A stretch of DNA of 64,000 nucleotides. Source: Fischerella sp. CENA71 (GTDB lineage: Bacteria; Cyanobacteriota; Cyanobacteriia; Cyanobacteriales; Nostocaceae). The position numbers were made by a program, and so were the translations under genes. This document shows positions 22,134 to 41,520 of this stretch, in pieces. The stretch covers positions 1 to 64,000 of the forward strand of contig JANBVI010000043.1 in the NCBI GenBank assembly GCA_024239075.1, read 5' to 3'. A model generated the notes under the pieces. That model was given only the letters and a program-made list of their open reading frames with translations, had not been told where the DNA came from and ran no database searches. The stretch's first letter is position 1. Each line of letters opens with the position of its first letter.

Positions 22134-23489
22134 TTATTGAGCCGATACGACTAAGGGATTTCTACTTCTTGTTTTAATATAGAAATCCACTGCTGTTAAT
22201 CCTGCGCTTTTCTTGGAAAAGAGTGTTGTTTTGAGAGTGTAATTTGGTGGATCGATTTCGGGATTGACTATGTACAAAAGAGTTGCTACAATTAGCATCA
22301 TTTGTATTTCTGCCAATCTTGCTCCTGTACAAGTATGCTCTCCAAAAGAGAATGGTGCAAATGCTCCTGGTTGCTTATGTTCTTGCCGAAGTGGAGTATA
22401 ACGTTCTACATCAAAAGTATAGGGTTCAGGATAAAATTGTGGTAAAAAATGTGATATCCCTAAAGCAATGTATATTAATTGTCCACTCTCAACTCTATAG
22501 CCTGCAAAATCAAATGGGTTTTTTACATAGCGTGGCAGTATAAATGCAGCGGGGTACATACGCAAGGTTTCCATTACTGCCCACCGCAAGACTTTCATAT
22601 TTTTAATATTTTCAAGATTAGGAATACCTTTAGCAAAAGCCGCATCTACTTCCGTCATGACTTTTTCGTGTAACTCTGGATTTTTGAGAATCTCGTACAT
22701 GAGAAATGATGCAGTTTTAGCAGCTGTACCAGGTACAGCAAAAAAAAGTCCCAATGTAAAGCTAAATATTTCCTTTTCTGTCAGGGCTTGCCCATCATCA
22801 TGAGCCATGATGAGTAAAGTATCCAACATATCTGGATTTTCAGTTTTAATCCCCCTTTTTTTTCGTTCTTCAATCAGGTTATTTATAAAACTAATCGTTC
22901 GATTCTTAGCTTTTATATATTTTATTTTTTTTAATTCTCGCTTTGATGTAACCCCAAACAAAGCTGCTTTGATCGCTGTATCTAGATATACATAAATGTC
23001 TTGGTAGTAATCACTGACGTCACAGTTTAGGAAAGCTAAAGCTACTTGTGTAGAAGTAACTCTTCTCATCAAATCATCTACTGCCAATCGCTGTCCTATA
23101 TGCCAGTTTTTTGACACATCTATGATGGCTTGGATCATTGAGTTCACATATTTATCTGCTTTATTAGGAGAGTAAAATAACTCATTTATCTTACGATAGC
23201 GACGATGCTCCTCACCATCCAAATTAACTGCAAAGTTCACATCTAATTCTTGAACAAAATCAGCGTAAGTTTTATAATTACTAAAGTAATCTATCTTCTT
23301 TTGAGAGAGAAATATATTAGCTTCTGGTCCCCCTAATATTGTTAATACTCTTCCAGGAACACAAACTTTGTAAAGAGGTCCAAGCTGCTGATAAGTTTTG
23401 ACAAAAAACTGATATGGATTTTTTATTAAAGGAATAGTATTTCCAATCAGAGGCAATCCTTTAGCTATTGGTATTTCTTTTTTAGTCAT
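22134..23489 (-). CDS. Cytochrome P450 of the triterpenoid cluster, atypical I-helix
   Basis: 451 residues. Haem-binding FSFGEHTCTGARL puts the thiolate at Cys387; the ExxR motif is in METLRMYP. In the I-helix, where the sister P450 at 30389 reads VGHETTANA, this one reads AVPGTAAKT: the conserved Thr is kept but the preceding acid is Gly. It lacks the CYP51 signature, so sterol 14-demethylase is not supported. Its ATG overlaps the stop of the Rieske gene (23486-23489), so it is the last gene of the tightly coupled operon and probably oxidises the cyclised triterpene. Redox partners are not in the window. Confidence 0.9.
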   Translation of the reverse strand: MTKKEIPIAKGLPLIGNTIPLIKNPYQFFVKTYQQLGPLYKVCVPGRVLTILGGPEANIFLSQKKIDYFSNYKTYADFVQELDVNFAVNLDGEEHRRYRKINELFYSPNKADKYVNSMIQAIIDVSKNWHIGQRLAVDDLMRRVTSTQVALAFLNCDVSDYYQDIYVYLDTAIKAALFGVTSKRELKKIKYIKAKNRTISFINNLIEERKKRGIKTENPDMLDTLLIMAHDDGQALTEKEIFSFTLGLFFAVPGTAAKTASFLMYEILKNPELHEKVMTEVDAAFAKGIPNLENIKNMKVLRWAVMETLRMYPAAFILPRYVKNPFDFAGYRVESGQLIYIALGISHFLPQFYPEPYTFDVERYTPLRQEHKQPGAFAPFSFGEHTCTGARLAEIQMMLIVATLLYIVNPEIDPPNYTLKTTLFSKKSAGLTAVDFYIKTRSRNPLVVSAQ

Positions 23490-24589
23490 ACGTTTTTTCC
23501 CTGAGTCTTAAGCAAATGCTCTTCCCATTTTGAAATTGTTAATTGCTGAAACAAAGTTACTGCTGGATTTAGTTCAATAATAGGTTTATCAAAGTGAGTT
23601 TCATATCCTTCCTGCTCTGCTTCAACAGCAACTCCATCTTGACTTAACAGTGGCTTTATTAATAGCAAGTTAGCAATTCTAAGTACAAAAGTCATTAACC
23701 ACTGAGGAATTCTTACTTTTGTAAAAGGAATTCTGAGAGCATCAAAGTAGAATAAAAAGAATGTGCGGGTTGTTCGTTCATTTATTGGGAGAATAAAGCA
23801 CCAGTGTTTAATTTTACCGTCAGTGTTTGACCACTGATATGGATATTCATAACAAAGTTCCATAGAGTTAGTATTTACACGTTGACGGTCAACAAATAGC
23901 CCAGAAATTAGACCAGTCCCAACTTGAGTATCGTAACTCACAAAAACGCGATCGCTTACTGTTTCACACTTAGTTAATTTGGCATCGACAAATGGACGAT
24001 ACTTACGATGCAAGTAAGCATGAGTAAAGTCGCTTACATTGTCGATAATCATAGAATGATGTGCCTGCCAAGTAAAATCTAATGGTACGCAAGCCCAAGG
24101 ATTTTTTCCTTCTAGCTCTGGGATATCGGGAATTTGTCTAATCTCGGCAAGGGCTGGGTCGCCAGGAAAAATCCAAATCAGCCCATAGCGGACTTTGACA
24201 GCATAAGTACTGATTTTGCAGGATGGCATTCGGTTGTCGAAGAGATCATGCGGGGTCTCAACAAGCCGCCCTTCTTCGTTATATTGCCAGCCGTGGTAAT
24301 AGCACGCCAAATTACAACCATCTACCTCACCTAAAGAAAGCTTAAGCTGACGGTGAACACAACGATTTTCTAAAGCTCTAAGCTTGCTATCTTGTCCTCG
24401 GTATAAAGCAATCGAAGTTTTCCAAAACTGAATCTCAACAACTTGACCAGGTTTAATAGCATGGTCATATTCCACAGCATACCAATAATCTGGGTTCATG
24501 CCTGATGAACGGACTTTTTGGCGACGGTTTTTTGTTTCAGAGAAGGTAGGAGGAGAAGAAGCTGAGAATTTATCAAGGTTAATGCTCAT
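23486..24589 (-). CDS. Rieske non-haem iron oxygenase (candidate sterol/triterpene C-4 oxygenase)
   Basis: 367 residues. Rieske [2Fe-2S] ligands Cys77, His79, Cys96 and His99 (RCVHR, CYYHGW). The mononuclear iron site follows in DNVSDFTHAYLHRKY, with His190 and His194. In Methylococcus the Rieske protein SdmA with the reductase SdmB removes a C-4 methyl of sterols; the same pair of families sits here next to an oxidosqualene-type cyclase, so an analogous role is a reasonable inference, not shown. The gene overlaps its neighbours by one base upstream and four bases downstream. A ferredoxin reductase is not present. Confidence 0.88.
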   Translation of the reverse strand: MSINLDKFSASSPPTFSETKNRRQKVRSSGMNPDYWYAVEYDHAIKPGQVVEIQFWKTSIALYRGQDSKLRALENRCVHRQLKLSLGEVDGCNLACYYHGWQYNEEGRLVETPHDLFDNRMPSCKISTYAVKVRYGLIWIFPGDPALAEIRQIPDIPELEGKNPWACVPLDFTWQAHHSMIIDNVSDFTHAYLHRKYRPFVDAKLTKCETVSDRVFVSYDTQVGTGLISGLFVDRQRVNTNSMELCYEYPYQWSNTDGKIKHWCFILPINERTTRTFFLFYFDALRIPFTKVRIPQWLMTFVLRIANLLLIKPLLSQDGVAVEAEQEGYETHFDKPIIELNPAVTLFQQLTISKWEEHLLKTQGKNV

Positions 24590-25659
24590 TATGTATTGTT
24601 ATGATTGTGTTGTAGACGATAATCTTTTCCGGACACAGTGAATTTAACGGTGTTGTTGGGACGAGCAATCAAACTCCGACGAGCAAAGTCTTCGTATGCT
24701 TCATAAATTGCCTGTTGAACAGAAGTTGGCTGATACCCTAACTCGTTTTTCGCTTTGCTTATGTCAGCACGGCGATTCATCTGCAAGATTCGTACTGCTC
24801 CTGATGTAAAACGCCGGGGTGCATTTGGGAAAATTTGGGGAAAGACAAAGTCTGCAATAGAGGCAATCCCTGCCATCACTTTTCCGGGTAAGCGCAGCTT
24901 GGGACGTGACATTCCTGTAACTTCCTCGAAAATTTTCATCAATTCATCCACTGTGAGAAACTGGGTGCTAAAAATATATTTTTGCCCACCCCGCCCTTTC
25001 TCCATCGCTAAGATATGACCTTCGACAATATCTCTGGCAGCTACAAAGTCAAAGCCACCGGGAATGTAAGCGAGTAACTTACCATGAGCAAAATCCAGTA
25101 GTGTTCGTCCCATCCGTGAAGGTTTAAAATCGTTAGGGCCAAGAATTGCACAGGAGACAGCAACTACCACATCTAGACCATCAGCAAAGGCTTTAAGACA
25201 TTCGTGTTCTACTAAAGCTTTTGTAAATCCATAAGGTAAGTGTTGAGCAAACGGATAGAAAGGCACTGTTTCATCGCTAGGACGAGATGGATGATGACCA
25301 ACTGCACTAAAGGAACCACTGACTACAACCTTAGAAACATCTGCATCAAGGGCAGCACGCAGCACATGAATTGTTCCTTTAACATTACAATCATAAATTT
25401 CTTGCTTGAGGTGGGTATCACCATTCAGGGTGGAGACGTTAGCAGCACAATGATAAATACGATCGCATCCTTTAACAGCTGCAACAGTGGAAGCAAAATC
25501 TCGCAAGTCTCCGTATACACATTCGACATCTAAACCATCAATCGCAGTATTATTAGTTCCTTCTCGTAAAAGAACCCGTACACTATTGCCATCTTCTAGC
25601 AAGCGACGAACCAAATTGGCTCCTAAGTGACCACTGGCTCCAGTAACTAATATTGTCAT
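24589..25659 (-). CDS. NAD(P)-dependent epimerase/3beta-HSD-type reductase
   Basis: 356 residues of the extended short-chain dehydrogenase family: nucleotide-binding GASGHLGANL at the N-terminus, VYGDLRD, and catalytic YGFTK with Tyr and Lys four apart, plus a Ser strand VVSGSFSAVG. It resembles 3beta-hydroxysteroid dehydrogenase/HpnA-like proteins. Next to the Rieske oxygenase it could do the SdmB-like decarboxylation/oxidation step at C-3/C-4 of the triterpenoid. It follows the cyclase gene by 28 bases and overlaps the Rieske start by one base (TAATG). Confidence 0.88.
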   Translation of the reverse strand: MTILVTGASGHLGANLVRRLLEDGNSVRVLLREGTNNTAIDGLDVECVYGDLRDFASTVAAVKGCDRIYHCAANVSTLNGDTHLKQEIYDCNVKGTIHVLRAALDADVSKVVVSGSFSAVGHHPSRPSDETVPFYPFAQHLPYGFTKALVEHECLKAFADGLDVVVAVSCAILGPNDFKPSRMGRTLLDFAHGKLLAYIPGGFDFVAARDIVEGHILAMEKGRGGQKYIFSTQFLTVDELMKIFEEVTGMSRPKLRLPGKVMAGIASIADFVFPQIFPNAPRRFTSGAVRILQMNRRADISKAKNELGYQPTSVQQAIYEAYEDFARRSLIARPNNTVKFTVSGKDYRLQHNHNNT

Positions 25660-25687
25660 ATAACTTTTTGCTTAAAATCTCAATTTT

Positions 25688-27715
25688 TTAAACACTTTCT
25701 AACGATATCCGTTCTTTTCGACGTGATTCATACATTCCTAATGCCCATACAGGAAAATAGCTACGATAGAGGGTATAGTCCAACAAAGCAGTGTGGAAAA
25801 AAACACCAGCCCAATCTTGCTTTGGCCATTCGCCGTTTTCTAACTGCATATTTACTAAGAAATTTGCTCCTTTGGCGATCGCTTCCCAATGATTTGTCCC
25901 CACAGTAAGTAAAGCCATCATTACCCAAGCGGTTTGAATGATTTGGCTTTTAGTGTGTTCAACGTATTGATTTGTTAAACATCCTTGAAAATGTTCTCCC
26001 CATCCTCCATCTGGTCTTTGTTTACTCACTAACCAGCGACACGCTTTGCGAATAGCTGGAGATTTAGTTTCACCAGCAGCTAATAATCCACGAATCCCGA
26101 ACATTGTGCCGTAGATAAAATTCACTCCCCAAAAACCTGGCCACGAACCATCTGGCATCTGTTGTTTAAGTAACCATAACTTTGCTTGTTGAATAGCTAT
26201 GTCAATCTCTTGGCTCATGACATCTGGATAATGCAGACTATATTCTCCTAAGGCTTCTAAACACGACGCTGTACACTCAATATATGAATGCTCTGTCATT
26301 GAATTGCCAAACATCTCTGCGGGATTCATCCACTCTAAAGTTGAAGCTATTTTTCGCCGTTCATAGCTTCCGAACCCACCATCAGAGTTTTGGCATCGGA
26401 GGATAAATTTCACAGCGTCTTGTAAATTGCAAGAACTAAGTACAGTAGACGGTGCATTTGTTAAGGCTAAGAGTGCTTCAGCTGTACAGTCACTAACAGG
26501 CCAACCATGCCAGACTCCCGCGAAGCAAAATCCCCCTTGCGGATCGATTCGATGAAAGTGTTGATAGTTGGGAAAGCTTTCTGTTATTTGTTGGCTTGCT
26601 AGAAATGTTTGCGCTTTCAGAAGACTTGCAGACACATCTAAATTAGAACTCGCTACTTTTAAAGCTTGAATAGCAAATGCGGTGTCCCAAGTGCTACTAC
26701 GCGCACCTGCAATCCGTAGTCCATTTTGCTCATCCTCCCACATCCACTCTTCTAAGTGATTTATGGTCTGATGAAGGTTTTGATCGTTGCGATCGTACAA
26801 CCACAGAGCAACAATATTCAGCAACCCACTAACAGGAGATAGGCTTGTATAATCTGTTGTTTGCAATTCGTATTGTATATTTTTTATCAGTTCATGGCTA
26901 ACTTTTTGACGCAAAGCTTTGGAGTAAAGGCTTTCATAAATATTGTTAATGTAATAAATAATACGTAATATAGAAGTGGGTGGATTATAAACATCCTCAG
27001 TCCTCAAAGCATGACGTGCTGCCTTCCATGCGATCGCATTGTAATCGCTCACGTATAATTCTTGGCGTAATTCCTGAATCAGTTGTGTTAGAGGAACTTG
27101 AAACTTGCGACCATAAATAAAGCTCATCGGCATATAAATCAGCCGAGTATGACAGTAGTAATTCTTAGGGTGAACAGGAAGCCAATCTGGCAATAACCAC
27201 GCTTCTGGTAATACGGGATTCACGCCGCGCCAGTCATATAGATTTAACATCGCAAGCCAAAACTTACCCCAGCTGGGAATTGCGATAACTCCGCCCACTT
27301 GTTGGATAAATTGCTGTGCAGGAACTAAAAGGGGATCGTCTTTATTAACTCCTAGAATGCGTGCTGCTACATATACCAAGGTTGTAGTAAAAAGGTAAGG
27401 CTCAGACTGATTATGCAAACCCCACAAGCCACTAGGTAACTGGGTTGCAGTAAATTGAAGTAGCAGTGCTTCTCGCCGTTTTTGAGAAATAGGTGTTTGA
27501 GTAATGTAACAAGTTAACGCATACTGGGCTGCTAGCATAGCACACCATACAACTTCCCCTTCCCAAGAACCATCAGTTGCTTGCTGAACAATAAGAGCAT
27601 TAACACCACGTAAGAGAGCGTTTTTGCTATCTAAGGGAGGAGATTGAGAAGATGGTAAGGATGAGGAAAATTTTTCAGTTTTCATTTTTACTTTACTTAT
27701 TAGTAAATATGTCAC
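25688..27715 (-). CDS. Oxidosqualene-type triterpene cyclase
   Basis: About 665-675 residues (GTG 27715, or ATG 27685 giving MKTEKFSSSL; both plausible). Catalytic motif VSDCTAE with Asp409 is the DCTAE of oxidosqualene cyclases, not the DxDDTA of squalene-hopene cyclases. Other OSC-type blocks agree: PMSFIYGRKF, STWDTAFAIQAL, HSYIECTASCLEAL, DGSWPGFWGVNFIYGTMFGIRGL and YFPVWALGMYE. QW repeats such as QNSDGGFGSYE and QRPDGGWGE are present. It should cyclise 2,3-oxidosqualene, made by the enzymes encoded just upstream. The product skeleton cannot be read from sequence. The epoxidase gene ends 6 bases before the GTG. Confidence 0.93.
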   Translation of the reverse strand: MTYLLISKVKMKTEKFSSSLPSSQSPPLDSKNALLRGVNALIVQQATDGSWEGEVVWCAMLAAQYALTCYITQTPISQKRREALLLQFTATQLPSGLWGLHNQSEPYLFTTTLVYVAARILGVNKDDPLLVPAQQFIQQVGGVIAIPSWGKFWLAMLNLYDWRGVNPVLPEAWLLPDWLPVHPKNYYCHTRLIYMPMSFIYGRKFQVPLTQLIQELRQELYVSDYNAIAWKAARHALRTEDVYNPPTSILRIIYYINNIYESLYSKALRQKVSHELIKNIQYELQTTDYTSLSPVSGLLNIVALWLYDRNDQNLHQTINHLEEWMWEDEQNGLRIAGARSSTWDTAFAIQALKVASSNLDVSASLLKAQTFLASQQITESFPNYQHFHRIDPQGGFCFAGVWHGWPVSDCTAEALLALTNAPSTVLSSCNLQDAVKFILRCQNSDGGFGSYERRKIASTLEWMNPAEMFGNSMTEHSYIECTASCLEALGEYSLHYPDVMSQEIDIAIQQAKLWLLKQQMPDGSWPGFWGVNFIYGTMFGIRGLLAAGETKSPAIRKACRWLVSKQRPDGGWGEHFQGCLTNQYVEHTKSQIIQTAWVMMALLTVGTNHWEAIAKGANFLVNMQLENGEWPKQDWAGVFFHTALLDYTLYRSYFPVWALGMYESRRKERISLESV

Positions 27716-27721
27716 ACAGCA

Positions 27722-29017
27722 TTAGTGGAAGGCTCTATGGACAAGACTGACTGCCGGCGATCGCATCCATTGACCAAAAGATTGTAGAACTTTCGTTCCA
27801 TGTTGCCACTGACGTTTAGAAGCAGAATCTTTAATTACGTATGCCATAGCCAAAGCAACTCCACTGATAAATGATTTGCCAAAAAATAACAAATTAGTTT
27901 CTGCTCCTGACAACAATCGCATAGTAGATACACAATAAGTAGGGTTTTGACGCCACATTTGGTAAATAGCTTTACGAATAGCTACAGCACTATCGTCATC
28001 ACGGCTAAATACTTCATGAAGGGTAGTCGCAAGCATTTCTGGCACATAAGTATGTAATTTGCGCTCACGTCGATAAGCCTTAAAACTTCGGCTATGAACA
28101 AGGGACTCGCCGTCCAAAAATCCAGTAGTCATCCCCGTTGCTGTCATTGGGTGAAAATGCCCAGTTGCATCACCCACTAATGCCAAGCCATCACGACCAT
28201 AATGAGTACGAGAACTAAATTGGTTTGCAGCCCAGACAACTTTATCATTTTGCAAAGCTTGCCGGAATGCTGGTAACAAGGACTTGGGCAATACCTGACT
28301 GTAAGCATCCCATAAATAAGAAGCTTTTTTTTGAGAATCAATTGGTACATCTAAACACACACGGATCTGTCGCGCTCCAATGCGATATGTTAACGCAGGG
28401 CCTGGTCCTCCCAAAAACACATGACCAAATCTTTCAAAAGGTAATTCCACATCTTCCAATAACACTCCAGCCATATAAGAAACGAGAGAGTAATTATTAG
28501 AAATATTTAGAGTTTTTCTAGCAAAAGAAGAGCGACCATCAGCGCCAACAATGCATTCAACTGATATAGTTTGAGTTTGTTGATGCTTGATATCTAAGAA
28601 AGTAAGATTTTGACCTTCGATATGAGTAACCTTAGCACTAAGAATTAACTGAATATTTGGATGAGCAGCTGCTGTGTTTCGTAGTGTTGATACAATTTTG
28701 TTATGCTCACAGCTAAATCCTATTAGTTCGTCAGGGTAATTGAGTTTAATTGGCTCAGTACCATCATCAGGAAAAACAACAAAGCCAAGACCTGTACTAT
28801 GTTCTAATGCCTGTAAATTTGACCATACACCAAAATGCTGTAAGATTTTGATTGCAGGAGGGTGTAACCATTCACCAGCAAAGCGCTTGTCATTTTTGGG
28901 GTGTGCTTCAAGTAGAACAACAGAATAACCACTATGAGCAAAAGCTAAGGCTGTAATACAACCAACTGGCCCTGCACCAATCACTGCGACATCAGAAGTT
29001 AAGTGTAAGCTTTTCAT
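27722..29017 (-). CDS. FAD monooxygenase, squalene-epoxidase-like
   Basis: 431 residues with the three FAD motifs of this class: GAGPVG at the N-terminus, GADGRSSFARK (DG motif) and ALVGDATGHFHPMTATGM (GD motif). After the first motif comes EWLHPPAIKILQHFG, similar in place to the GELLQPGG block of squalene epoxidases. No N-terminal membrane anchor; a weakly hydrophobic stretch lies near the C-terminus (SFISGVALAMAYVI). With a DCTAE cyclase directly downstream, making 2,3-oxidosqualene is the best-supported role. A gap of 218 bases separates it from the squalene-synthase-like gene; nothing was recognised there except a probable promoter region. Confidence 0.87.
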   Translation of the reverse strand: MKSLHLTSDVAVIGAGPVGCITALAFAHSGYSVVLLEAHPKNDKRFAGEWLHPPAIKILQHFGVWSNLQALEHSTGLGFVVFPDDGTEPIKLNYPDELIGFSCEHNKIVSTLRNTAAAHPNIQLILSAKVTHIEGQNLTFLDIKHQQTQTISVECIVGADGRSSFARKTLNISNNYSLVSYMAGVLLEDVELPFERFGHVFLGGPGPALTYRIGARQIRVCLDVPIDSQKKASYLWDAYSQVLPKSLLPAFRQALQNDKVVWAANQFSSRTHYGRDGLALVGDATGHFHPMTATGMTTGFLDGESLVHSRSFKAYRRERKLHTYVPEMLATTLHEVFSRDDDSAVAIRKAIYQMWRQNPTYCVSTMRLLSGAETNLLFFGKSFISGVALAMAYVIKDSASKRQWQHGTKVLQSFGQWMRSPAVSLVHRAFH

Positions 29018-29235
29018 AAGAATTGTATGAGCAAGCTATTATCAAAAAAGTTTGCTAATTTTTCATTGATTCTGCGTATAGAAAACGAACATAATATAGG
29101 AAAGTCACCCTACCAAACTTAACTTTTTGAAAGTAAACTTCTAAAAATTCTCTATACTAGGCACAACATCATTTTTCGTTATGCCAAGCTCGATAAAAAA
29201 GAAGTATGCACAGCCACAAAGACAATTGTTATTAA

Positions 29236-30054
29236 TTATTTGTTAGCTGTTAATTGTTCAACAATCTTGATTACATCGTTGCGGCTAAGTTGCGATTTTC
29301 CTACAGCTAAAACATTTAGTGTCGCATGAGCTAAAGCAAGAGGGACTTGACAAAAATCTTTAGCTGGACAATTTGGAAGAGCATTAGTGTAAGCATCAGC
29401 AAGCATGAGATTGCGGCTGGCATACATCTGCATATCCTCTTGACTCCAGCCCATAGGAAAGAAATCGACTTGACGCGTTAAGTCTTCAGAACGATTACGT
29501 AGAATGTTGACTGCTTGTAAGCCTCGACCAAAACCGATTGCATAAGTACGGTTAGTCTGAGTGCCATCATACCAAGTCCATAAATCAGAAAGTAACAATC
29601 CTACAGAGCCAGCAACGCTGTAAGTGTAACAATCTAAATCGAACTCTTTATCAATTGTCCAACCACACTCAGCCCAGTAAGCCATTCTATCAGCCATTGC
29701 TGCGATCGCATCCCAAATCCGAGGGGCAATAGTTTTAGGTGCAAGCAATGCCCATTCACCAATACGAACTGATACCTCTGCTAGTAATGTTTCGTGTTGA
29801 CTTAGTGCTAAAGCAAACTCTGAGGTATTTAAACTATCACTCATAGCCTGCAATTTTAGACTTATTGTTCGTAATAATACAGCTTTAGTAAAATTATCAA
29901 GTCCAGAATGATCTTCAATTTCATCAATTGCACGCATACATAGGTATGCAGAACTCACAGCTTCTTGCAATCCTGAAGGTAAATTACTAATAGGAATATA
30001 GAAAGTTCGGCTTGTTTCTTTAAGAATCTCTAAAGCATCTTTACAAAGTTTCAT
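29236..30054 (-). CDS. Squalene/phytoene-synthase family enzyme with altered second Asp motif
   Basis: 272 residues. First Asp-rich motif RAIDEIEDH (Asp44-Asp48) resembles the DTVED of squalene synthases. The second motif, normally NxxRDxxED, reads NILRNRSED (Asn187 in place of the first Asp). The trans-isoprenyl fold is otherwise clear (SRTFYIPI, VAGSVGLLLSDL, GRGLQAVN). It should join two farnesyl diphosphates into squalene and feed the epoxidase. It lacks the C-terminal membrane anchor of eukaryotic enzymes. The Asn may reduce or change activity. Confidence 0.88.
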   Translation of the reverse strand: MKLCKDALEILKETSRTFYIPISNLPSGLQEAVSSAYLCMRAIDEIEDHSGLDNFTKAVLLRTISLKLQAMSDSLNTSEFALALSQHETLLAEVSVRIGEWALLAPKTIAPRIWDAIAAMADRMAYWAECGWTIDKEFDLDCYTYSVAGSVGLLLSDLWTWYDGTQTNRTYAIGFGRGLQAVNILRNRSEDLTRQVDFFPMGWSQEDMQMYASRNLMLADAYTNALPNCPAKDFCQVPLALAHATLNVLAVGKSQLSRNDVIKIVEQLTANK

Positions 30055-30388
30055 TTGTATACCTTGCTTAAATATGAGTTAGCGAGGAGCCGTTAAAAAA
30101 ATCTCAGCCTTGGCAGCAAAGCTATTGCCAGGAAGCTACCTCCACGACAAAAATATGAATGATGCGCTCACACTCTGAGCAGTTGCAATCAATTCCTCAG
30201 TTATAGCAGTAGCGATCGCTAAATAGTTTTTCGTTTTGTGGGCTCAAGTAGGGGAATAGTCATAGCAGGTTTCTCCTTGGTAATTGAACCTTTATTGATT
30301 TATCTGAAGTCATTAGATGTTTTATGCATCAATTAAGAAAAATTTTGGGGATGCATTAGCTGGTTCTAAACTGACTACAACGGAGATT
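30055..30388 (-). other. Intergenic region with a possible gene remnant
   Basis: On the minus strand AAGGAGAAACCTGCT precedes an ATG that reads MTIPLLEPTKRKTI and then stops; shifted frame continues AIATAITEELIATAQSVSAS. A good ribosome site before such a short frame suggests the start of a decayed gene between the squalene-synthase-like gene and the P450. Nothing else is visible. Confidence 0.3.
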
Positions 30389-31789
30389 CTACGATTTGTG
30401 TACTCTATTCTTTCGCTCTTTCACTAGCAATCGCACACCACCAGAAGGTACAAACATTAAGCCTCGACGTTCAGGTAAAAGGGGACGCTTTTGTGCTAAT
30501 ACCAATGAGTATTGAGACAACACTGTTGCCAGTACCAGTTTCATTTCAAACATGGCAAATGCCATCCCCAAGCAGCGACGATTTCCTCCGCCAAATGGTA
30601 AGTATTCATAAGGAGAAAACTGCCGCTCTAAAAAGCGTTCTGGTTTAAACTGTTTTGGTTCAGGGTAAATATCTGGACGCTGATGTATTAAATAAATACA
30701 GGGAGATAGCATTGTTCCTGCGGGTAATTCATAGCCCATTAATTGCATTGGAGTTTGTAAAATCCGTGTAAAAGTAAAGAAAACCACCGGATAAATTCTC
30801 AAAGTTTCGCAACACACGGCATTTAAATAAGGCAATTGTGCAATTGCCATTGGTTCAGCGCTAGCGAACTCGATGGAATTAAGTTCTTGCAGTAATTTCT
30901 CTCGCACTTCTGGTAGATAATGCACCCAATATAAAGCCCATGCCAAAGCATTTGCTGTCGTTTCATGTCCGACAAATAGCATTGTCATTAATTCATCGCG
31001 CAGTTCCTCATCTGTCATTGGTTGTCCATCTGCATCGCGGGCTGATATTAATAGACTGAGGATATCTTCACCTAATAATTCTGGCTGATTTTTCCGTTCT
31101 CTTATTTCTTGGTAAACTAATTCATCAAGTCGCTGTTTTTGCCGAAGATAATTTCCCCAAGGACTCCAAGCACCCCAATCTCGTTGTAGGGCTTTGAAGA
31201 AAAGTACGCTAGCGCTCCAAGGAGAATTAAACGAATCCAACATTTTTGTTAAAATCTGATGAATTTGTTGGTAACGCTCTCCATCTTGAAGTCCAAAAAC
31301 TGTGCGTAATATCACCGTGAGGGAAATTTCTTGCATACAAGGACGCGCTACAAATGAATCTTTCGCCGTCCATGTGCTCATCACTTGTTGAGCAATATCA
31401 AAAATCGTGTGACCGTAAGCCCGCATTCTTTCCCCATGAAAGGGCGGCATTAATAGCTTGCGTTGCTGTAGGTGGCGGTTACCATCAAGTAAGATTAATG
31501 AATTTCCTCCCACAATCGGTCGAACTATTTCGTTACCGACTCCTGACTTAAATAATTGTGAATCAGCAGTAAAAATTTCTTGAATTGCTTGGATGTTACT
31601 AATCACAATCATCGGAGGAAAAATGCTGAATGGAGGTGTGTAAAAAATATCTCCATATTTTTGTTGCATTTGTTCGAGAAAATGTACTGGTTGTAAAACC
31701 AATTTCATATTCTGCAACAAATTTAATTTGAGTGTTCTACCTGGTAATTTATAGATTTGATTAGAAGAGTTTTCTGGTAGTGTTACCAT
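30389..31789 (-). CDS. Cytochrome P450 (CYP110-like)
   Basis: 466 residues. Haem loop PFGGGNRRCLGMAFA with Cys406, ExxR in CETLRIYP, and a canonical I-helix LFVGHETTANALAW. The overall look is that of the cyanobacterial CYP110 group, known as fatty-acid or terpene hydroxylases. It starts at ATG 31789 after a 165-base gap and reads in the same direction as the triterpenoid cluster, 334 bases upstream of the squalene-synthase-like gene, so membership of the pathway is possible but less certain than for the other P450. Confidence 0.9.
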   Translation of the reverse strand: MVTLPENSSNQIYKLPGRTLKLNLLQNMKLVLQPVHFLEQMQQKYGDIFYTPPFSIFPPMIVISNIQAIQEIFTADSQLFKSGVGNEIVRPIVGGNSLILLDGNRHLQQRKLLMPPFHGERMRAYGHTIFDIAQQVMSTWTAKDSFVARPCMQEISLTVILRTVFGLQDGERYQQIHQILTKMLDSFNSPWSASVLFFKALQRDWGAWSPWGNYLRQKQRLDELVYQEIRERKNQPELLGEDILSLLISARDADGQPMTDEELRDELMTMLFVGHETTANALAWALYWVHYLPEVREKLLQELNSIEFASAEPMAIAQLPYLNAVCCETLRIYPVVFFTFTRILQTPMQLMGYELPAGTMLSPCIYLIHQRPDIYPEPKQFKPERFLERQFSPYEYLPFGGGNRRCLGMAFAMFEMKLVLATVLSQYSLVLAQKRPLLPERRGLMFVPSGGVRLLVKERKNRVHKS

Positions 31790-33605: not shown

Positions 33606-36281
33606 CTACAGCCAATTACCCACTAGAATAAACGCAGACCAATGATAGGGACGATTGTAATCTCTGTCTGAAGTTTCTTTCAAAAATGCCAGTTGAGTAT
33701 TTCTTAAAGCTTCTGCTTTTGTTATTTTGCTACGATTAAGTTCTTGGTAAAACTTAATCATAAATTCGGCAGTAGAAGCATCATTAATCTGCCACAAGCT
33801 AGCTAGAGTAGTGCGCGCACCAGCTCGAATTGCTACTCCTGCTAATCCCAAAGCGGCTCGTTTGTCTCCAGTTGCTGTTTCACAAGCACTAAGGATTAGT
33901 AATTCAATAGGATTAGTACTTTTTTGGAAATTAAAACGCAGCAAGTTATCTAAATCTTTGACCTTAATGCGTTCATTCCAGTCAAGAATATATGTTTGTT
34001 CGGGGTTATAACTAAACTTACCATGAGTTGCCAAGTGAACAATATTAAAGGGTGTTTTATTAATCTTAGCCTGAAGATTTTTCTTGATAAATTCCTGATT
34101 TTCTAGCGTCTGATTGCGTTGAGTATTCTCTTTAATTCCTCCTAATTCTACTGCTACATTATCAATCGCTCCTAATCCTTCTTTTTTAAAGCTGGGCGCG
34201 TCAGTTGCTCCGGCTATTAAGACACTGAGTGCTTCCCTGTGTAGCGGTTTGGGTTCAAGTAGCTGTAAAGTGGGGGTTACACTCACAGCATACCTTTCTA
34301 CCAAATACCTTTGTCCGTCGTAGAGAACCGCCATTGGTAGATTCCGCAATGAACCATCGAGAACAAATACTAAGGTTTTAATCTGGCTTTGCTCTCGCGC
34401 TGTTGTACTTTCAAGTTCATCTGCAAAAGGTTTAATCAACCAGTCATATAGCTGTTTTGCTTCTGTTTTTATTTGCTTTAAGCTGGTGCTGCGTCGCTTG
34501 AGAGAGTTTTGCAGTTGTGTGACTGCTGCATCAACTTGAGTTTCCGAAAGATTGGTATGGGCATAGTGACGTAAATTATCCAAGCCTGGTAATTTCAGAA
34601 TTACTTCTAAACGGTTTGGTAAGATAATTGGGTAAATAACGGCTGCATAGGGGTCTAATTGGTCAATATTTACCTGTTTTGGCTTGGCACAGGCATCACC
34701 AAAAAAGTTGTCTAATTCTGCTAGTTGTAGCGCTTCCATCACCTGACGAGCTTGAATGAGATGATCTCGATTTGGTTGTGGCGATCGCAAAAGTAAATCA
34801 ACTAATTGCCGATAGACTGGTTCTGCACTGTCTCGAAAGGAAAACTGAACTTCTGGATTTAGAGCTACTAAATCACTGCGTAAATTACTGAGGCTATCAA
34901 AAGCTTGTGTATAATATAGAATAGCTTCTTGATTTGCATTTTCATTGTGCAATGTCTTTTCTGTTTCTGCCTGAAACACCCTTCCCATTTGCCACTGCCA
35001 TTGATAGCTGATATCTGCTGCATTGATTGCCTGTGCCAGAAGTAGGGCAGACTGAGTAAGTTTTTTTGCATTTAACCAGTCTCCATTTTTTTCGTAGAAT
35101 GTACCGAGAGTTCCAAGTGCGTAAGATTCTGCGCGTTGATCTTGTAAACTTTGAGCTTGGTCTATGGCTGTTTGCAGTATTTGAATTATTCTTGAACTAT
35201 CATCTGGACTATTAACTGCTCTTTTTATCTTCATCCAATTTTGAGCAAAATTGATGCGAGCATAAATAGCTACTCTACTGGCAGGTAATTGATTGATTGA
35301 TGCTTGGATTTGCTCAATCACAGATGAAATAGATGTTAATTTACTAGTTTCAATTAACACTGCAAATTGATTGAGTAGTGCCTGAACTTTTGTAGTAGGT
35401 AAAGTTGCGATCGCATTAGCTTTTTGATAACGTTCTAAAGCTTTTTGCCTGTATTGTTGGGTGCGTTGTGTATCTTTTAATTCTTCTGCTCGTTTGGCGA
35501 TCGCTAATTCTGTATTCCCCAAATTGAGTAAAGCTGTACTTTCTTCTTGGGGTAAGCGCAATTTTTGGGCAATAGCCAAACTCTGGGTTAAAATTTCTGA
35601 GGATTTTTCTAAATCACCATCAAATCGGTAAATGTTACCAAGGTTCAGCAAGCCAGCCAGCTTAAAGTTAGAGTCAGGTTGTTGGTAAAACTTTTGCTCT
35701 ACTTGCGTTAAAAGTTTCTCGGCGCGCCGATAAAGTCCTAAAGCTTGCAATGCTAAAGCTTGATTCATCTGGCTACCAATTATACTGAGGCGATCGCCAG
35801 ATTGAACATACAATTTTTCAGCTTTTTCCCAACTCAAAAGAGCAGCTTCAGTTTGCCCCTGTGCCAATTGCCACTGCCCTAAATTATTCAATACTTGGGC
35901 ATGAATGCGGCTGAACTCTTTGTCAGATGGTAATTTATCTAATAAATTTAAACTAGTGTCAATTGCTGCCTTTGCTTTTTGCCAATGCCCCAGTTTTTGC
36001 TGAACCAAGGACATTAAACTTAATGCTTGAGCTTGGTGAGTTATGTCTCCTGAAGCTTGATAAATTTGCACTGCTTGTTGTAAAAGTTGTGCGGCTGCGG
36101 AAAACTGTCCAGCATCGTAATATTTTTGACTAGATTGTACTAACGCTAAGGCTGATGCAGGTTTACTTTGTTGAATTTGGGTTGAGGGATTTTGGGCAAT
36201 GACAGGTAATAGCACTGGAATACCCAGGCTCAATATTAACCCGAAAATCACAAGTAAAGTTAACCCCAGCAAACGTTTCAT
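33606..36281 (-). CDS. TPR-CHAT protease-like protein
   Basis: 891 residues: signal peptide or N-terminal anchor (LLGLTLLVIFGLILSLGIPV), TPR repeats about 45-480 (for example QALSLMSLVQQKLGHWQKAK), then a CHAT domain from about 580 with catalytic His in VHLATHGKF and Cys in LILSACETATG. CHAT domains are caspase/separase-related. In cyanobacteria such proteins are typically encoded beside haemagglutinin-type TPS proteins; here the gap to the haemagglutinin gene is 3 bases. Exported orientation suggests action on surface proteins; substrate unknown. Confidence 0.92.
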   Translation of the reverse strand: MKRLLGLTLLVIFGLILSLGIPVLLPVIAQNPSTQIQQSKPASALALVQSSQKYYDAGQFSAAAQLLQQAVQIYQASGDITHQAQALSLMSLVQQKLGHWQKAKAAIDTSLNLLDKLPSDKEFSRIHAQVLNNLGQWQLAQGQTEAALLSWEKAEKLYVQSGDRLSIIGSQMNQALALQALGLYRRAEKLLTQVEQKFYQQPDSNFKLAGLLNLGNIYRFDGDLEKSSEILTQSLAIAQKLRLPQEESTALLNLGNTELAIAKRAEELKDTQRTQQYRQKALERYQKANAIATLPTTKVQALLNQFAVLIETSKLTSISSVIEQIQASINQLPASRVAIYARINFAQNWMKIKRAVNSPDDSSRIIQILQTAIDQAQSLQDQRAESYALGTLGTFYEKNGDWLNAKKLTQSALLLAQAINAADISYQWQWQMGRVFQAETEKTLHNENANQEAILYYTQAFDSLSNLRSDLVALNPEVQFSFRDSAEPVYRQLVDLLLRSPQPNRDHLIQARQVMEALQLAELDNFFGDACAKPKQVNIDQLDPYAAVIYPIILPNRLEVILKLPGLDNLRHYAHTNLSETQVDAAVTQLQNSLKRRSTSLKQIKTEAKQLYDWLIKPFADELESTTAREQSQIKTLVFVLDGSLRNLPMAVLYDGQRYLVERYAVSVTPTLQLLEPKPLHREALSVLIAGATDAPSFKKEGLGAIDNVAVELGGIKENTQRNQTLENQEFIKKNLQAKINKTPFNIVHLATHGKFSYNPEQTYILDWNERIKVKDLDNLLRFNFQKSTNPIELLILSACETATGDKRAALGLAGVAIRAGARTTLASLWQINDASTAEFMIKFYQELNRSKITKAEALRNTQLAFLKETSDRDYNRPYHWSAFILVGNWL

Positions 36282-36284
36282 CAG

Positions 36285-38984
36285 TTATCCCCTCAGCATC
36301 TGACAGTCTTGGGGATATAACCAATTACCTTTAGGTGTCACCGTGACTGGTTTCGCCGTAAGTACGACATTACCATTTACGTCTTTTACCCAACCTTGGG
36401 CTTCGATAATTGCTGTAGATTCTGTTTGTTTTTGAGGTGTTGGGTTATTATTTGTTGGTGTTGGTTTAGTTTGAGTTTGTGGTGATATCCACCAATCTTC
36501 CCAGGTTGTATCTGCACTGAAGACTCCATAGGGAGAAGCAGGTAAGCCACCTCTACCAGTAACAATAAATTCACTTCCTTGAGATGCAACGCAGAGGTTT
36601 TGGTTAATTAATCCAGAAACATCGACAATATCTGTTGGTAATTTTTCCACTCCTTCGGTAGGGTCAATATCAGGTGTGTTGAGATTTACCTCACCATTTA
36701 AGGAAGGGTTGCTTTGAGAGATGGCAGTGATGTCACTTGTTGGTAACTGATTGGGGTTTAATTTTATGGGGTCACTTGTTTGCAGCAACCCCTCAAGTTC
36801 TTGACGGCTGCGTGATTTTAGCCCAAATATCCCAGCAGCATTAATAGTAACCTTGCCACCGCTACCCTTAAAAGCATTAGCGGTAATATCATTGTTTTCG
36901 TTTGGGGAAGCGACGATAAAGCCTTTGGGTGCATTAATGGTAATATTGCCACCATTGCCATCCTGTTGTGCGGTGCCTGCTGTGGAAGAAATTTGACTCT
37001 TACGCCGTAGCAGTAATAAATCTTGTAGTTTGAAGCTGATATTACCACCAGTATTACTGGCAGTTTCGGCAGAAATGGCAGATTTATTGTTTAGGGAAAG
37101 GGAACTAGCCTGAATGTCGATATTTCCACCCTTGCCATTGCCTTGGTTATCTACCGTGATAGCTGCACTATCCTGGAGGACGACTTGATCCCCAGTCACA
37201 ATATTTACATTGCCTGCATCCCCTTGACTACCTCTGACTGTACTAGCGGCAATTCCAGCACCATTAGTCAGAGATAGTGATTTTGCAGTAATCTCAATGT
37301 TTCCCCCCCGACCTATTGCTGGAATAGTTGTATCACCCTTGACTTCTCCCACGGAACTGGCTGCTCCACTGCCGCCAAGAATCGATACTCCATCAAAAGA
37401 GACGCGATCGCTAACTTCAATCTTGATATTACCTGCATCCCCTTTTTCAAAGGTATTGGCAGTCAATTGAGCGCCATTTCTCACATCCAAGGATCGCGCT
37501 TGGATATAAATATCTCCCCCTCGACCTTCACCATCAGTCCCCACTGCGGTAAAAACTCCAGTGAAGTTGTTAATATCACTTGTATCTACTGCATCAAAGT
37601 AAATGCGATCGCGGACTTGAATTATGACATTACCTGCATTTCCCTTGCCACGGGTATTAGTTTGCAGGCGACCGCCATTGGTCAAAGAAAAGGAACCTGC
37701 CGTTAACTTGATATCTCCGGCATTACCCGTTGCATCTGGTCTGACATTGTTAAAGATCGCACTGGGGAATCCTTCACTATCTGTACCATCGAAGGCGACG
37801 CGATCGCGAACTTGTACAGTGATATTGCCTGCATTTCCCTGTGCGTAGGTCTCCGCTATTAATTCAGCGCCATCAGTCAAAGAAAATGAGCCAGCCTGAA
37901 TTTTAATGTTACCGCCATTACCAATGGCATTGGGATCGACGGAATTGAAAATAGTGCTAAAACCTGATAGCGAAACTGTTTCAGAGGTAATGTTTATATC
38001 ACCAGCCTGACTATTAACTGTTCCCAAACCTTCGTTAATCCCAGCCACCAGAAAGCTGTTTCCTAAAACCCTGAAGTTTTGGGCATTGATGAAAATACTC
38101 CCGCCCTTGTCAGCAGTTCTTACGTCTATAGATCCATCGATGATAGAAACATCAGTTTTTTGGACATTTTCAGGGAAACTGAGATTTAGGTGTTCACCAT
38201 CAATATTTAATCCCACTGTTCCCAAACCAGTAATTCCTCCCAATTCTACTTGACCACCCTTAGCATTTAATCTACCTCCGTTGATAACTACATCTCCTCC
38301 CAGCAGTAGCAAGCTACGACCATCCGGAACCCGCAGACCAAATAGACGAAATCCGGCTTGATCAAATCCTGCTGGTGCAGTTGACCTGTTTTCAATCTTT
38401 CCAGGCTGAATTTGATTAAAGAAAAATGCAGAAGGATTTACTGTCAATAAAGAGGGATACTCTGGATTAGTAGCGCTGAAAAAACCTTGCTCATCAAACT
38501 TAATTGCATTTGCTGTACTCGCTACAAATGAACCCCCCACATCCAAGCGTGCATTCTGCCCAAAAATTATCCCGTTGGGATTAATTAAAAATAAATTGGC
38601 ATTGCCATTAACACCCAGCGTCCCTAAAATATCCGAGGGGTCATTACCTGTAACTCGACTCAGGATATTATTTATCCCCGCAGGATTTGAAAAATATACT
38701 CGCTGTCCATCTTTGATATTAAATTCACGAAAACTGTGAAAAAGATTACTTCCCCTGATTGCACCCCCATCAATTTGGTCAGCAGCAGCACCTTTAATAT
38801 CAACATTGGGGGTAATAATTGAACGTTCATTACCTAAAGTGTCATCGGGAGTAATTTGGGCTAAAGCGCTAGTGTGAGAGAATGCGATCGCCAATACTCC
38901 CAAAAGTGAGAATAATCTAGCTAAAATTAATGAAACAAAAGCACTATCTGTACATAGTAAAAGAGTATTATTGCTGCTTTTCAT
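36285..38984 (-). CDS. Filamentous-haemagglutinin-type TPS exoprotein
   Basis: 899 residues. After a signal segment ending near SALA, the TPS secretion domain shows RGSNLFHSFREFNI, YFSNPAGINNILSRVTG and the signature LFLINPNGIIFG. The rest is a repetitive beta-helix (NAGNITVQVRDRVAF, GGNIKIQAGSFSLTDGAEL and similar about every 60 residues). It ends with a Thr/Pro/Gln-rich linker and a short conserved tail. It is secreted through an outer-membrane TpsB partner, not seen in the window. It forms an operon with the CHAT gene directly downstream. Confidence 0.92.
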   Translation of the reverse strand: MKSSNNTLLLCTDSAFVSLILARLFSLLGVLAIAFSHTSALAQITPDDTLGNERSIITPNVDIKGAAADQIDGGAIRGSNLFHSFREFNIKDGQRVYFSNPAGINNILSRVTGNDPSDILGTLGVNGNANLFLINPNGIIFGQNARLDVGGSFVASTANAIKFDEQGFFSATNPEYPSLLTVNPSAFFFNQIQPGKIENRSTAPAGFDQAGFRLFGLRVPDGRSLLLLGGDVVINGGRLNAKGGQVELGGITGLGTVGLNIDGEHLNLSFPENVQKTDVSIIDGSIDVRTADKGGSIFINAQNFRVLGNSFLVAGINEGLGTVNSQAGDINITSETVSLSGFSTIFNSVDPNAIGNGGNIKIQAGSFSLTDGAELIAETYAQGNAGNITVQVRDRVAFDGTDSEGFPSAIFNNVRPDATGNAGDIKLTAGSFSLTNGGRLQTNTRGKGNAGNVIIQVRDRIYFDAVDTSDINNFTGVFTAVGTDGEGRGGDIYIQARSLDVRNGAQLTANTFEKGDAGNIKIEVSDRVSFDGVSILGGSGAASSVGEVKGDTTIPAIGRGGNIEITAKSLSLTNGAGIAASTVRGSQGDAGNVNIVTGDQVVLQDSAAITVDNQGNGKGGNIDIQASSLSLNNKSAISAETASNTGGNISFKLQDLLLLRRKSQISSTAGTAQQDGNGGNITINAPKGFIVASPNENNDITANAFKGSGGKVTINAAGIFGLKSRSRQELEGLLQTSDPIKLNPNQLPTSDITAISQSNPSLNGEVNLNTPDIDPTEGVEKLPTDIVDVSGLINQNLCVASQGSEFIVTGRGGLPASPYGVFSADTTWEDWWISPQTQTKPTPTNNNPTPQKQTESTAIIEAQGWVKDVNGNVVLTAKPVTVTPKGNWLYPQDCQMLRG

Positions 38985-39210
38985 CAGCTCCCTCAGATTT
39001 GACGCTAGAGCAAACAGTTATGAATTTTCCATTGATACCTGATTCTTAAAAAGCTTTCAACAAAATTTTATTTGAGTGATTTTATTGTGAGTATTACATT
39101 ACCATTGGCATTTAGGAAATTTTATAAATAATTTGCAAAATTGTAATAAAATAAAAAATAATTATATAGTTCGTAACATCTAGACTTGTTTTATTGTTAA
39201 ATAAATTACT

Positions 39211-41520
39211 TTACTTATTATTTTCCAATATTTTATATCTATAAATAACTAAACTACTTTCAACAGCCACTAATCCTAAAGCTGGGGAAACTAAAGGTAT
39301 CCAACCTCCCTTAAAAATCAACAAACCCCAACAAGTTACGTATAAAACACCCAAAGCCACTCCTCCCCCCAGTAAAATTAGACGCAGTGACATCAAACGC
39401 CAACCTAGCAAACCTCCTATTAACGACCAACCGCAAATCCACATCGTTTCAATTGGTTTTGACCACGACCAAATCAACGGCCGTTGATCTAATACTCTAC
39501 TGAGAATTTGACTGACCATGTGTGCTTGAATTTCCACACCTGTCATAGTTTTAACTGAAAAAGAACCACTACTGTAGGGCGTACGCCAATGATGGTCGTT
39601 AAAACTGGGGTCTGTAGTACCAACAATAACAATACGATTTTTGACTAAATTCGTATTAAATTGATTGCTGAGAATTTCTTGGAGAGTCACTTTTTCTGCA
39701 ATCTCTTCTGAGGCGCGATAGTTGAGTAATATTTGATGACCGCTAGCATTAATATTGTGGTAGCTACCTGTATTTTTTTCTAAAGTTTTAAATACGACTT
39801 TACCCAATTTTAAGTAATTATCTGGTGTAAAGTCTTGCTGAATTCCGGCTTCGGTTAGGTAACTAACTGCAAGCTTCCAAGCAAAGGAATACTTGCTTTC
39901 ACAGGGAGATGCAGAATCTACAGCTAATATTTGCCGACGGAGAACAGCATCAGAGTCAAGTTCTACATTATTAAATCCTTGACCGTGTTTTGAAGCTTCT
40001 GGAGGAGGTTTAATACCAGGTTTTCCATAGTGACAAACAATAAAGAGATTATTACTATTTTTTATCTTTTCAGCTAAATTTTTGTGTTTTGCTTCCAGAG
40101 GAGTTTCTCGATAGATATCGAAACCGATCGCTCGCGGTTTTGACTGTTCTAGTTTTGTTAGTAATTGTATAAAAGAACGCTCAGACAAAGAAGCAGCTTT
40201 TCGTTCTGTAATCGGTTGAGATTGGACATCTTCTTCTGTGATAGTAACTAATAATAACCGTTTATCTATGCCTTCATCGGGTCGCGATCGCATCAGTTGA
40301 TCGTAAGTTTGTAGCTCCCATACTTGCAAAAAACCAAGAGTTCTGATGACAATAACTATAGTGGTAATAGCAAAACTGGCTACAGCGACTTGCCAAAATG
40401 GGAGAGCAGCTTGGTATTTATTTTGCTGTTTTAACTGTTTTTTTAACCACTTTAAATCAAATATTGCTTTATATATGGGATTTTTAATAAATATTTTGCC
40501 TTGGTGCTGATTTACTAGACCAGATAGGCGTAATTCCAGACAGGAATCAGAATTATTAGTAAGTATTTCCCCTCGCTGCAAAATTTTTTTATACAATAAA
40601 AGTAAAGATTTGCTGGAACGGGAATTTCTCAAAATGCGATCGCGAATCGTCCGCAAATGCTCCGGTTCATCCTGAGATTCCCAATTCTCAATGATGCGCT
40701 TTCTCACTAACTGCTTGATAGATTGCGGTGTCTGCATCTCAGATTCCTGAGAAATCAACCAACAAAGTTTTTGAGTTAAAAATGGTTGTCCACCAGTCCA
40801 ATACAGGATTTCTTTGAAAACGGCTTCCGGATCATTAACTTTTTCCACCAAACCCTGTACTAAACTAACACTCTCATGCAGTTGAAATCCTTTTAATTCA
40901 ATCGCTCGACCAATATTAAAGGGAGTCGCATTTTCATCTTGAATTAAATCAGCAGGTGTCGCTACACCCAGTAATGCAAAAGATAGTCTTCTATACTTTG
41001 GGTTGCTTGCCCTTTTATCGTAGCAGTGACGAATCAAAGCAAAAAATTCGTCCGTAGGAAAATTTAAACTCAGGATGCTATCAATTTCATCAATAAAAAT
41101 TACAATTTTTTGCTTAATTTGTGTTAGCAAGAAATTTTCAATAAACTCACCCAAGCATTGCACAGGTGATAAATCTTCGTGTTCGCGCAACCAACTACGA
41201 CGGTTTACTTGTAGCTCAAATCCACTGATTAATTCTTGAATAATCCCGCCATACCATTGCTGTGCTGTAATTTGTTGACTACCAATCCCGCTTAATTCAA
41301 TTTCGACACAGTTAATATTTTGTGCTTGTAATTTGCACATTGTCTTAATTCGCAAACTAGATTTACCCATTTGTCGGGAGTTCAGAACATAGCAATATTC
41401 CCCAGCTAACAAAGCATTGTAAAGCTCGTGGTCTGCCTCCCGGACAATATAGGTAGGAGCGTCAGGGGGTAAACTTCCTCCGGCTTGATATTTGTAGTGG
41501 GAGTAGAGTTCAGTACTCAT
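39211..41520 (-). CDS. AAA-like ATPase + CHASE2 membrane protein
   Basis: 769 residues. The N-terminal part is an AAA_35-type P-loop domain with variant Walker [11 protein letters not shown] and Walker [15 protein letters not shown] first membrane segment lies at about 378-395, followed by an extracytoplasmic CHASE2 domain ([40 protein letters not shown]), and three membrane helices end the protein. CHASE2 is a sensory domain of unknown ligand. It is divergent from the lanthipeptide precursor gene, with three TTACCTGAA repeats in between. It belongs with the CHAT/haemagglutinin genes by family association. Confidence 0.92.

Follow-up and report, generated by a model that had tools for sequence, protein, structure and literature searches.

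A probable reduced bacterial sterol gene cluster in Fischerella sp. CENA71, predicted to keep C-4 demethylation and to have lost C-14 demethylation

The window analysed here is a 64,000-nucleotide stretch of the Fischerella sp. CENA71 genome (GCA_024239075.1, contig JANBVI010000043.1, positions 1-64,000), and the cluster under study lies at 22134-31789. It consists of seven open reading frames (ORFs), all open and all on the minus strand, whose Pfam families are, in coordinate order, p450, Rieske with VanA_C, an Epimerase/3Beta_HSD short-chain dehydrogenase/reductase (SDR), N- and C-terminal SQHop_cyclase, SE, SQS_PSY and p450. A preliminary description of this DNA had listed seven minus-strand genes of these families at these positions, and the ORFs, Pfam and NCBIfam agree with it. 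We name the genes P450a, SdmA, SdmB, OSC (oxidosqualene cyclase), SE (squalene epoxidase), SQS (squalene synthase) and P450b (Table 1). All seven are thus present as described, with two amendments: P450b is probably outside the pathway, and a relic of the sterol C-14 reductase gene ERG24, lying between SQS and SE, had been overlooked. Taking the homologies together, we consider it probable that the set is a bacterial sterol operon in reduced form, whose product would be a C-4-demethylated 14alpha-methyl sterol that is further oxidised.

The order SQS-SE-OSC-SdmB-SdmA-P450a is also the order of the presumed chemistry. From SE to P450a the spacing is operon-like, with gaps of 6 bp between SE and OSC and 28 bp between OSC and SdmB, and overlaps of 1 bp (SdmB/SdmA) and 4 bp (SdmA/P450a); SQS lies 218 bp ahead of SE, and the gap between P450b and SQS is 334 bp. 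A foreign base composition of the cluster is ruled out, since G+C runs at 0.36-0.42 in 2-kb windows over 21-35 kb without a step. RNA regulators reaching the Rfam gathering score were not found in 20000-33600, and a promoter and terminator scan, which gave counts close to shuffle level (35 vs 28.5 and 6 vs 7.9), was not used.

Table 1. Features of the cluster and its right flank, with positions in the window
Feature	Position	Strand	Description
P450b	30389..31789	-	CYP110-like cytochrome P450 (name from the preliminary description), probably a bystander
SQS	29236..30054	-	predicted squalene synthase, cyanobacterial (hopanoid) type; 272 aa, heads the gene set
ERG24 relic	29094..29225	-	remnant of a sterol C-14 reductase gene (ERG4/ERG24 family) comprising its 44 final codons, with two in-frame stops; non-functional
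SE	27722..29017	-	predicted squalene 2,3-epoxidase (squalene monooxygenase), 431 aa
OSC	25688..27715	-	predicted lanosterol synthase of 675 aa, starting at GTG and with an in-frame ATG at 27685
SdmB	24589..25659	-	predicted SDR-type C-4 decarboxylase/reductase, 356 aa
SdmA	23486..24589	-	predicted Rieske-type sterol C-4 methyl oxidase, 367 aa
P450a	22134..23489	-	divergent P450, predicted tailoring oxidase, not CYP51
Right flank	33606..49797		kept in a congener (G537; blastn)

Enzymes of the predicted pathway

Profile, motif and tree agree that the cyclase is of the OSC type, as the preliminary description had proposed from its DCTAE motif and the lack of DxDD. The protein scores 721 bits (E 1e-216) with the 2,3-oxidosqualene cyclase model TIGR03463 vs 282 bits with the hopene_cyclase model, and 531 bits against human lanosterol synthase (LSS) vs 205 bits against squalene-hopene cyclase (SHC). 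Its motif reads GWPVSDCTAE, SDCTAE falling at human positions 454-459 with D455-C-T-A-E aligned. The cyclase tree holds 44 rows, 35 OSC and nine cyanobacterial SHC (the genome's own and eight of 29 fetched), the human row being long and its placement unsure; OSCs and hopene cyclases split at 100/100 with a long branch between them, and the window OSC pairs (100/100) with that of an uncultured Scytonema sp. metagenome-assembled genome (MAG; locus L037) inside a ten-row cyanobacterial clade (95/92). Profiles, residues and tree therefore rule out a hopene cyclase. The other cyclase of Fischerella, on contig C55, is a hopene cyclase with the motif PDVDDTA (DVDDTA) and adjoins its own squalene synthase, so that hopene and oxidosqualene branches coexist in this genome.

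With regard to the product, 32 positions, picked from recall of active-site work, were mapped on human lanosterol synthase, and at 31 of them the window OSC equals the OSC of Calothrix sp. NIES-4105, which made lanosterol in Escherichia coli according to Lee et al. (2023; PMC10202945). From this analysis the window OSC most likely forms lanosterol. The product had at first been considered unpredictable; the Calothrix experiments turn lanosterol followed by C-4 demethylation into a strong prediction.

The flavin adenine dinucleotide (FAD) enzyme directly ahead of the cyclase had been called squalene-epoxidase-like, and this holds: it matches PF08491 (E 1e-29), and its closest solved relative is human squalene monooxygenase (SQLE; 114.9 bits, vs 61 for the next match, VisC). 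NCBIfam speaks against the assignment, as the best model is of the UbiH type (98 bits) and no squalene epoxidase model stands among the best 25 of 64 families. Further evidence comes from gene position and fusion, as SE is either a neighbour of OSC or fused with it in many relatives. SE and OSC share a single open frame in 19 of 38 loci (L035-L072), some of which are cut by a contig end or a frame break, and the two cyanobacterial cases are Rivularia and Calothrix rhizosoleniae. This fusion ties the FAD enzyme to oxidosqualene supply and, being recurrent, offers a useful functional link. Where complete, the fused proteins have about 1100 aa (e.g., L039:8618-11962 and L040:957-4301), and their hosts are cyanobacteria, Actinomycetota, Pseudomonadota, Elusimicrobiota, Myxococcota and a Dehalococcoidia MAG; no description of the fusion was found in our literature searches. 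Both SE and OSC are under purifying selection, the ratio of non-synonymous to synonymous substitution (dN/dS) relative to L037 being 0.24 over a dS of 0.25 for SE and 0.14 over a dS of 0.34 for OSC. SQS matches PF00494 (E 2e-20) and, under the cut-off of that model, TIGR01559 (E 1e-19, 71 bits). Its first aspartate-rich motif DxxED is present (DEIED), and the second reads NRSED (NILRN), with Asn for the first Asp. The same Asn occurs in all seven cyanobacterial cluster SQS compared, that of the window among them, and also in the SQS that adjoins the SHC gene of this genome, which makes it a lineage trait and rules out the decay of SQS that the motif might suggest.

SdmA and SdmB lie adjacent to each other and beside OSC, and the proposal that this Rieske and reductase pair is the SdmA/SdmB combination is upheld by the profile search: the best NCBIfam models are those for SdmA (NF052579, 411 bits, E 4e-123) and SdmB (NF052578, 340 bits, E 3e-101). 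The biochemically tested Calothrix NIES-4105 proteins, to which the window pair is 74% (SdmA) and 73% (SdmB) identical, score alike on these models, with 392 and 348 bits. SdmA has the Rieske CxH...CxxH and the mononuclear iron site D..H...H laid out as in Calothrix, and SdmB has the SDR motifs TGASGHLG and YGFTK (TGxxGxxG/YxxxK). According to PMC10202945, Calothrix SdmAB expressed in E. coli stripped lanosterol of its two C-4 methyls, which implies that C-4 demethylation can go ahead before C-14 demethylation. P450b, listed as CYP110-like in the preliminary description, is of a common P450 type and probably a bystander to the pathway, being 53% identical to another P450 of the same genome and 69% to a P450 that Amazonocrinis has outside its OSC cluster; a dedicated pathway role is therefore unlikely. 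The OSC loci of Planktothrix, Amazonocrinis and Rivularia also hold relatives at 44-53%, which weighs against the bystander reading.

Missing C-14 demethylation genes and the proposed product

Ten other cyanobacterial OSC loci (L035, L037-L042, L065, L066 and L071) served for comparison. Eight of them carry both CYP51 and ERG24, the latter truncated in L071 (Calothrix NIES-4105) and interrupted by the end of the contig in L037 and L040; Amazonocrinis (L038) and Prochloron (L042) lack both genes. The window holds neither CYP51 nor an intact ERG24. No CYP51 orthologue was found in the Fischerella genome (99.91% complete) either, where a cyanobacterial CYP51 query gave seven P450 matches, none above 27% identity, and an ERG4/ERG24 query returned nothing beyond one partial match on contig C88, discussed below. 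The ERG2-type C-8 isomerase occurs in eight of the ten loci, the exceptions being the Planktothrix and Prochloron stretches; the window has no such gene and no KshA-type Rieske genes. A methyltransferase query in the own genome found at best 34%. Hence the window does not contain a complete cholesterol-type cyanobacterial cluster, as defined by CYP51, ERG24 and ERG2. L038, L039 and L040 have an intact GGR-type FAD gene. Relatives of this gene are reported to be a bacterial C-24 reductase that sterol-competent cyanobacteria also possess (PMC12004948), and it may itself be that reductase. The L037 gene at 9915-10691 (259 aa), tried as a candidate C-8 isomerase, has no Pfam match.

The former presence of a C-14 reductase is recorded in the window itself. 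Between SQS and SE, 26 of 44 residues are identical to the last 44 residues of ERG24 (tblastn, E 8e-10 to 1e-9, 49.3 bits), while the best score that any of four queries reached on 1000 versions of the interval shuffled base by base was 22.3 bits. An intact ERG24 (368 aa) sits in the same place in L039, L041, L065 and L066, and so does the truncated part in L071; in L037 and L040 the gene immediately precedes SE where the contig ends, and in Planktothrix it lies elsewhere, not between SQS and SE. The position of the relic thus indicates that the ancestor of this block had a C-14 reductase. Its DNA is 70% identical to L037 vs 90.7% for the adjoining SE, as expected of a relic that drifts freely.

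From these assignments we infer the activities, the order of steps and the product as follows. SQS would convert farnesyl diphosphate to squalene, in parallel to the SHC-adjacent synthase of the genome, SE would epoxidise it, and OSC would fold the oxidosqualene, most likely to lanosterol. SdmA would then oxidise one or both C-4 methyl groups, SdmB would carry out the decarboxylation and reduce the 3-keto intermediate, and P450a may finally oxidise the sterol in a tailoring step. As CYP51 and the C-14 reductase are missing, apart from the relic, the 14alpha-methyl group would be retained, and since neither an ERG2 isomerase nor a GGR-type C-24 reductase is in the cluster, so would the double bonds at C-8 and C-24. 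The predicted backbone is 14alpha-methyl-cholesta-8,24-dien-3beta-ol if both C-4 methyls are lost, and otherwise its 4-monomethyl homologue.

A number of observations weigh against this proposal. At 12 of the 32 mapped positions the OSC differs from human lanosterol synthase (20 are shared), so that the prediction of lanosterol depends on the Calothrix enzyme only, and the mapped positions are the same in most other bacterial OSC rows as well. Its 721 bits stay below the NCBIfam cut-off of TIGR03463 (851), as do the 732 bits of the lanosterol-forming Calothrix OSC, and SdmA and SdmB stay below their equivalog cut-offs (600 each), which do not discriminate, as the tested Calothrix pair fails them too. 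The best solved relatives of P450a are CYP51 enzymes, so that it may have a role at C-14. The ERG4/ERG24 match on C88, a C-terminal one of 30.5 bits, covers 90 of 432 positions in a 225-aa frame; a genome-wide ERG2 search found nothing, and no control gave a match either; and a query with the GGR-type C-24 reductase, confined to the window, hit only the SE gene (40 bits, 28109-28990). Moreover, the authors of PMC10202945 judged their sterol analysis of Calothrix NIES-4105 inconclusive, which leaves in vivo production by this type of cluster unproven.

These points bear on three other explanations. The relationship of P450a to CYP51, its position beside SdmA, which CYP51 occupies in relatives, and the weak match on C88 would fit a full C-14-demethylating pathway, in which P450a is a fast-evolving substitute for CYP51, a distant reductase replaces ERG24 and a zymosterol-like product is formed. 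However, P450a reaches only 125 bits to its best PDB match, the CYP51 of Methylococcus, where the true cyanobacterial CYP51 of L037 scores 421, and with 23% identity to the latter it is no closer to it than to most other P450s compared. In the printed alignments its I-helix reads AVPGTAA where CYP51 has AGHHTSS, and the PIFG stretch is lacking; both are sequences that we take to be marks of CYP51. Its nearest relative, at 38%, is a P450 in the Planktothrix OSC cluster, apart from which a query in ten genomes or records gave no full-length match above 30%. The identification of P450a as CYP51 is rejected on these grounds and, with ERG24 reduced to a relic at its proper place, an intact C-14 route seems improbable. 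The relic with its stops, and the absence from the window of the genes that separate OSC and SdmB in L037, could also mark a once complete pathway in decay from which nothing is made, but none of the six pathway ORFs is interrupted, five of the genes keep their tight spacing, the motifs are intact, and selection still acts on OSC and SE, so we give this view little credence.

A cyclase with some other product, such as parkeol or a protostane, decorated by SdmAB and P450a to a specialised non-sterol triterpenoid, is unlikely too, if marginally less so. In its favour, single residues can switch the products of OSCs, 12 mapped positions differ from the human enzyme, and the Planktothrix homologue stands in a larger oxidative cluster with a carbamoyltransferase that resembles specialised metabolism. 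Against it stand the near-complete agreement of the mapped positions with the Calothrix OSC and the presence of SdmAB, whose tested homologues act on lanosterol. We therefore keep to a reduced sterol operon as the favoured interpretation.

Distribution, surroundings and significance

The cluster is rare. SdmA orthologues (at least 75% identity) occur in six of 218 genomes of the family, the own genome and five others, and none was found in four congeners at E 1e-60; among the ten OSC loci they are present in eight, Planktothrix and Prochloron having none. A second SdmA-like Rieske family, 31-35% identical, occurs in 20 of the 218 genomes (L100, L101, L102 and L103); in L100 a Cupin_8 gene stands ahead of it, and L101 has a similar ORF. 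The cyclase query matched 89 of 386 cyanobacterial genomes, a count of uncalibrated sensitivity that does not bear out the earlier statement that most cyanobacteria make hopanoids, and apart from the window's own, all matches longer than 500 residues have at most 31% identity, the level of hopene cyclases. In the congener G537 synteny begins at 33606 and continues in blocks of 92% and 95% nucleotide identity to the end of the stretch read, the preceding DNA being different (blastn); since homology ends there, the cluster lies in a variable stretch. Its left border was not located: for 15600-22100 against four congeners, the matches listed do not exceed about 1.3 kb at 65%, or else are short repeats.

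This left side contains several repeats, namely a 62-bp tandem repeat at 15269-15510, a 92-nt direct repeat in three copies 73-76% alike (16619-16710, 17794-17885 and 20256-20347), and short repeats of about 110 nt at 16746-16864 and 20470-20575 with many near-identical copies in the genome; the latter is abundant in congeners as well, and part of it matches in both orientations. Elsewhere in the window, genes for a RAMP-superfamily protein and a Cas3-like helicase C-terminal part (912-4942) probably belong to a CRISPR-Cas locus, and at 42091-47566 lies a lanthipeptide-type locus, in which the gene of a DUF4135/LANC_like protein (LanM-type lanthionine synthetase) precedes that of a C39-peptidase ABC transporter.

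Cyanobacterial OSCs were listed in 2016 for Planktothrix, Prochloron and Westiella (PMC4919349), and experiments on a sterol cluster of a cyanobacterium followed in 2023 (PMC10202945), so the kind of cluster is already known; according to the latter source, de novo sterols in cyanobacteria have been disputed. The text at hand of PMC6520454, on Hormoscilla, contains nothing on sterol genes. What is new is the composition, C-4 demethylation being kept and the C-14 demethylation genes missing, which makes this a stripped-down version of the cholesterol-type clusters of a few related cyanobacteria. In the literature searched, supplementary tables not covered, we found no description of such a cyanobacterial variant, nor any of a 14-methyl sterol branch in cyanobacteria. 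It is conceivable, although we hold it short of probable, that 14-methyl, C-4-demethylated sterols are end products in their own right, CYP51 and ERG24 having been dropped together and a new P450 type, that of P450a, doing the tailoring, with Amazonocrinis nigriterrae CENA67 as a second case. If so, cyanobacteria would hold a 14-methyl sterol branch, retention of the 14alpha-methyl group would probe whether sterol function needs C-14 demethylation, and a possible cyanobacterial source of 14-methylated sterols and steranes would be added. The six-gene set in chemical order is an easy case for heterologous reconstitution, and strain CENA67, a named strain with a related CYP51-less locus, allows a direct test.

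Relation to known sterol clusters

The cluster looks mosaic when its genes are compared with their relatives. Relative to the Scytonema MAG, nucleotide identity is 90.7% for SE (dS 0.25) and 90.6% for OSC (dS 0.34) but 72.3% for SdmB (dS 2.8) and 74.9% for SdmA (dS saturated), and the stretch of close homology begins at the ERG24 relic and ends with the stop codon of OSC (blastn, 27723-29225 and 25687-27726). In the SdmB tree the window groups with Amazonocrinis (SH-like approximate likelihood ratio test, SH-aLRT, 94, under the strict mark), and in the SQS tree it joins Amazonocrinis (89), the L037 SQS, beyond the contig end, not being included; the SdmA tree is without resolution, and by plain identity L037 is as near as Amazonocrinis or nearer for both SdmA and SdmB. 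Deletions within a full cluster would fit these data, but we favour a history in which an SE-OSC block like that of L037, bordered by an ERG24 stub, was imported into a cluster of the Amazonocrinis kind from which CYP51 was already absent.

Among the known systems, the Scytonema MAG has the nearest SE (87%) and OSC (91%) at the protein level, with SdmB at 80% and SdmA at 82%. Its locus includes an ERG24 that the end of the contig cuts off, together with ERG2, CYP51, three KshA-type Rieske genes and a methyltransferase, of which the window has no intact copies. Calothrix sp. NIES-4105 likewise unites SQS, SE, OSC (62% amino acid identity), SdmB and SdmA in one cyanobacterial cluster, and differs in having CYP51, ERG2, a methyltransferase, KshA-type Rieske genes and a truncated ERG24, where the window has only the ERG24 relic and P450a. 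Its ERG24 looks split, with a C-terminal 171-aa frame and a distant fragment (L071:4280-4426 and 8069-8584), and its match to the GGR-type gene is partial (L071:14547-14963); this may bear on its unstable sterol production. In Planktothrix agardhii No.2A (plasmid p2, L035) OSC is 67%, SE 57%, SQS 64% and SdmB 63% identical to the window, but the stretch holds CYP51, ERG24, three Rieske genes and the carbamoyltransferase, and neither an SdmA orthologue (best 29%) nor ERG2; with its further P450s and SDRs it is a candidate for a heavily decorated steroid. Methylococcus capsulatus uses a Rieske SdmA and an SDR SdmB for C-4 demethylation (also described in PMC10202945), as predicted here, yet takes off one C-4 methyl and has a CYP51 of solved structure (6mi0), for which no counterpart was found in Fischerella. 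A further parallel is Amazonocrinis nigriterrae CENA67, where SdmB and SdmA are adjacent, the locus is likewise without CYP51 and ERG24, and 11 P450 matches in the genome include none above 29.1% identity to CYP51; unlike the window, it keeps ERG2, a KshA-type Rieske gene, the GGR-type FAD gene and extra SdmB copies.

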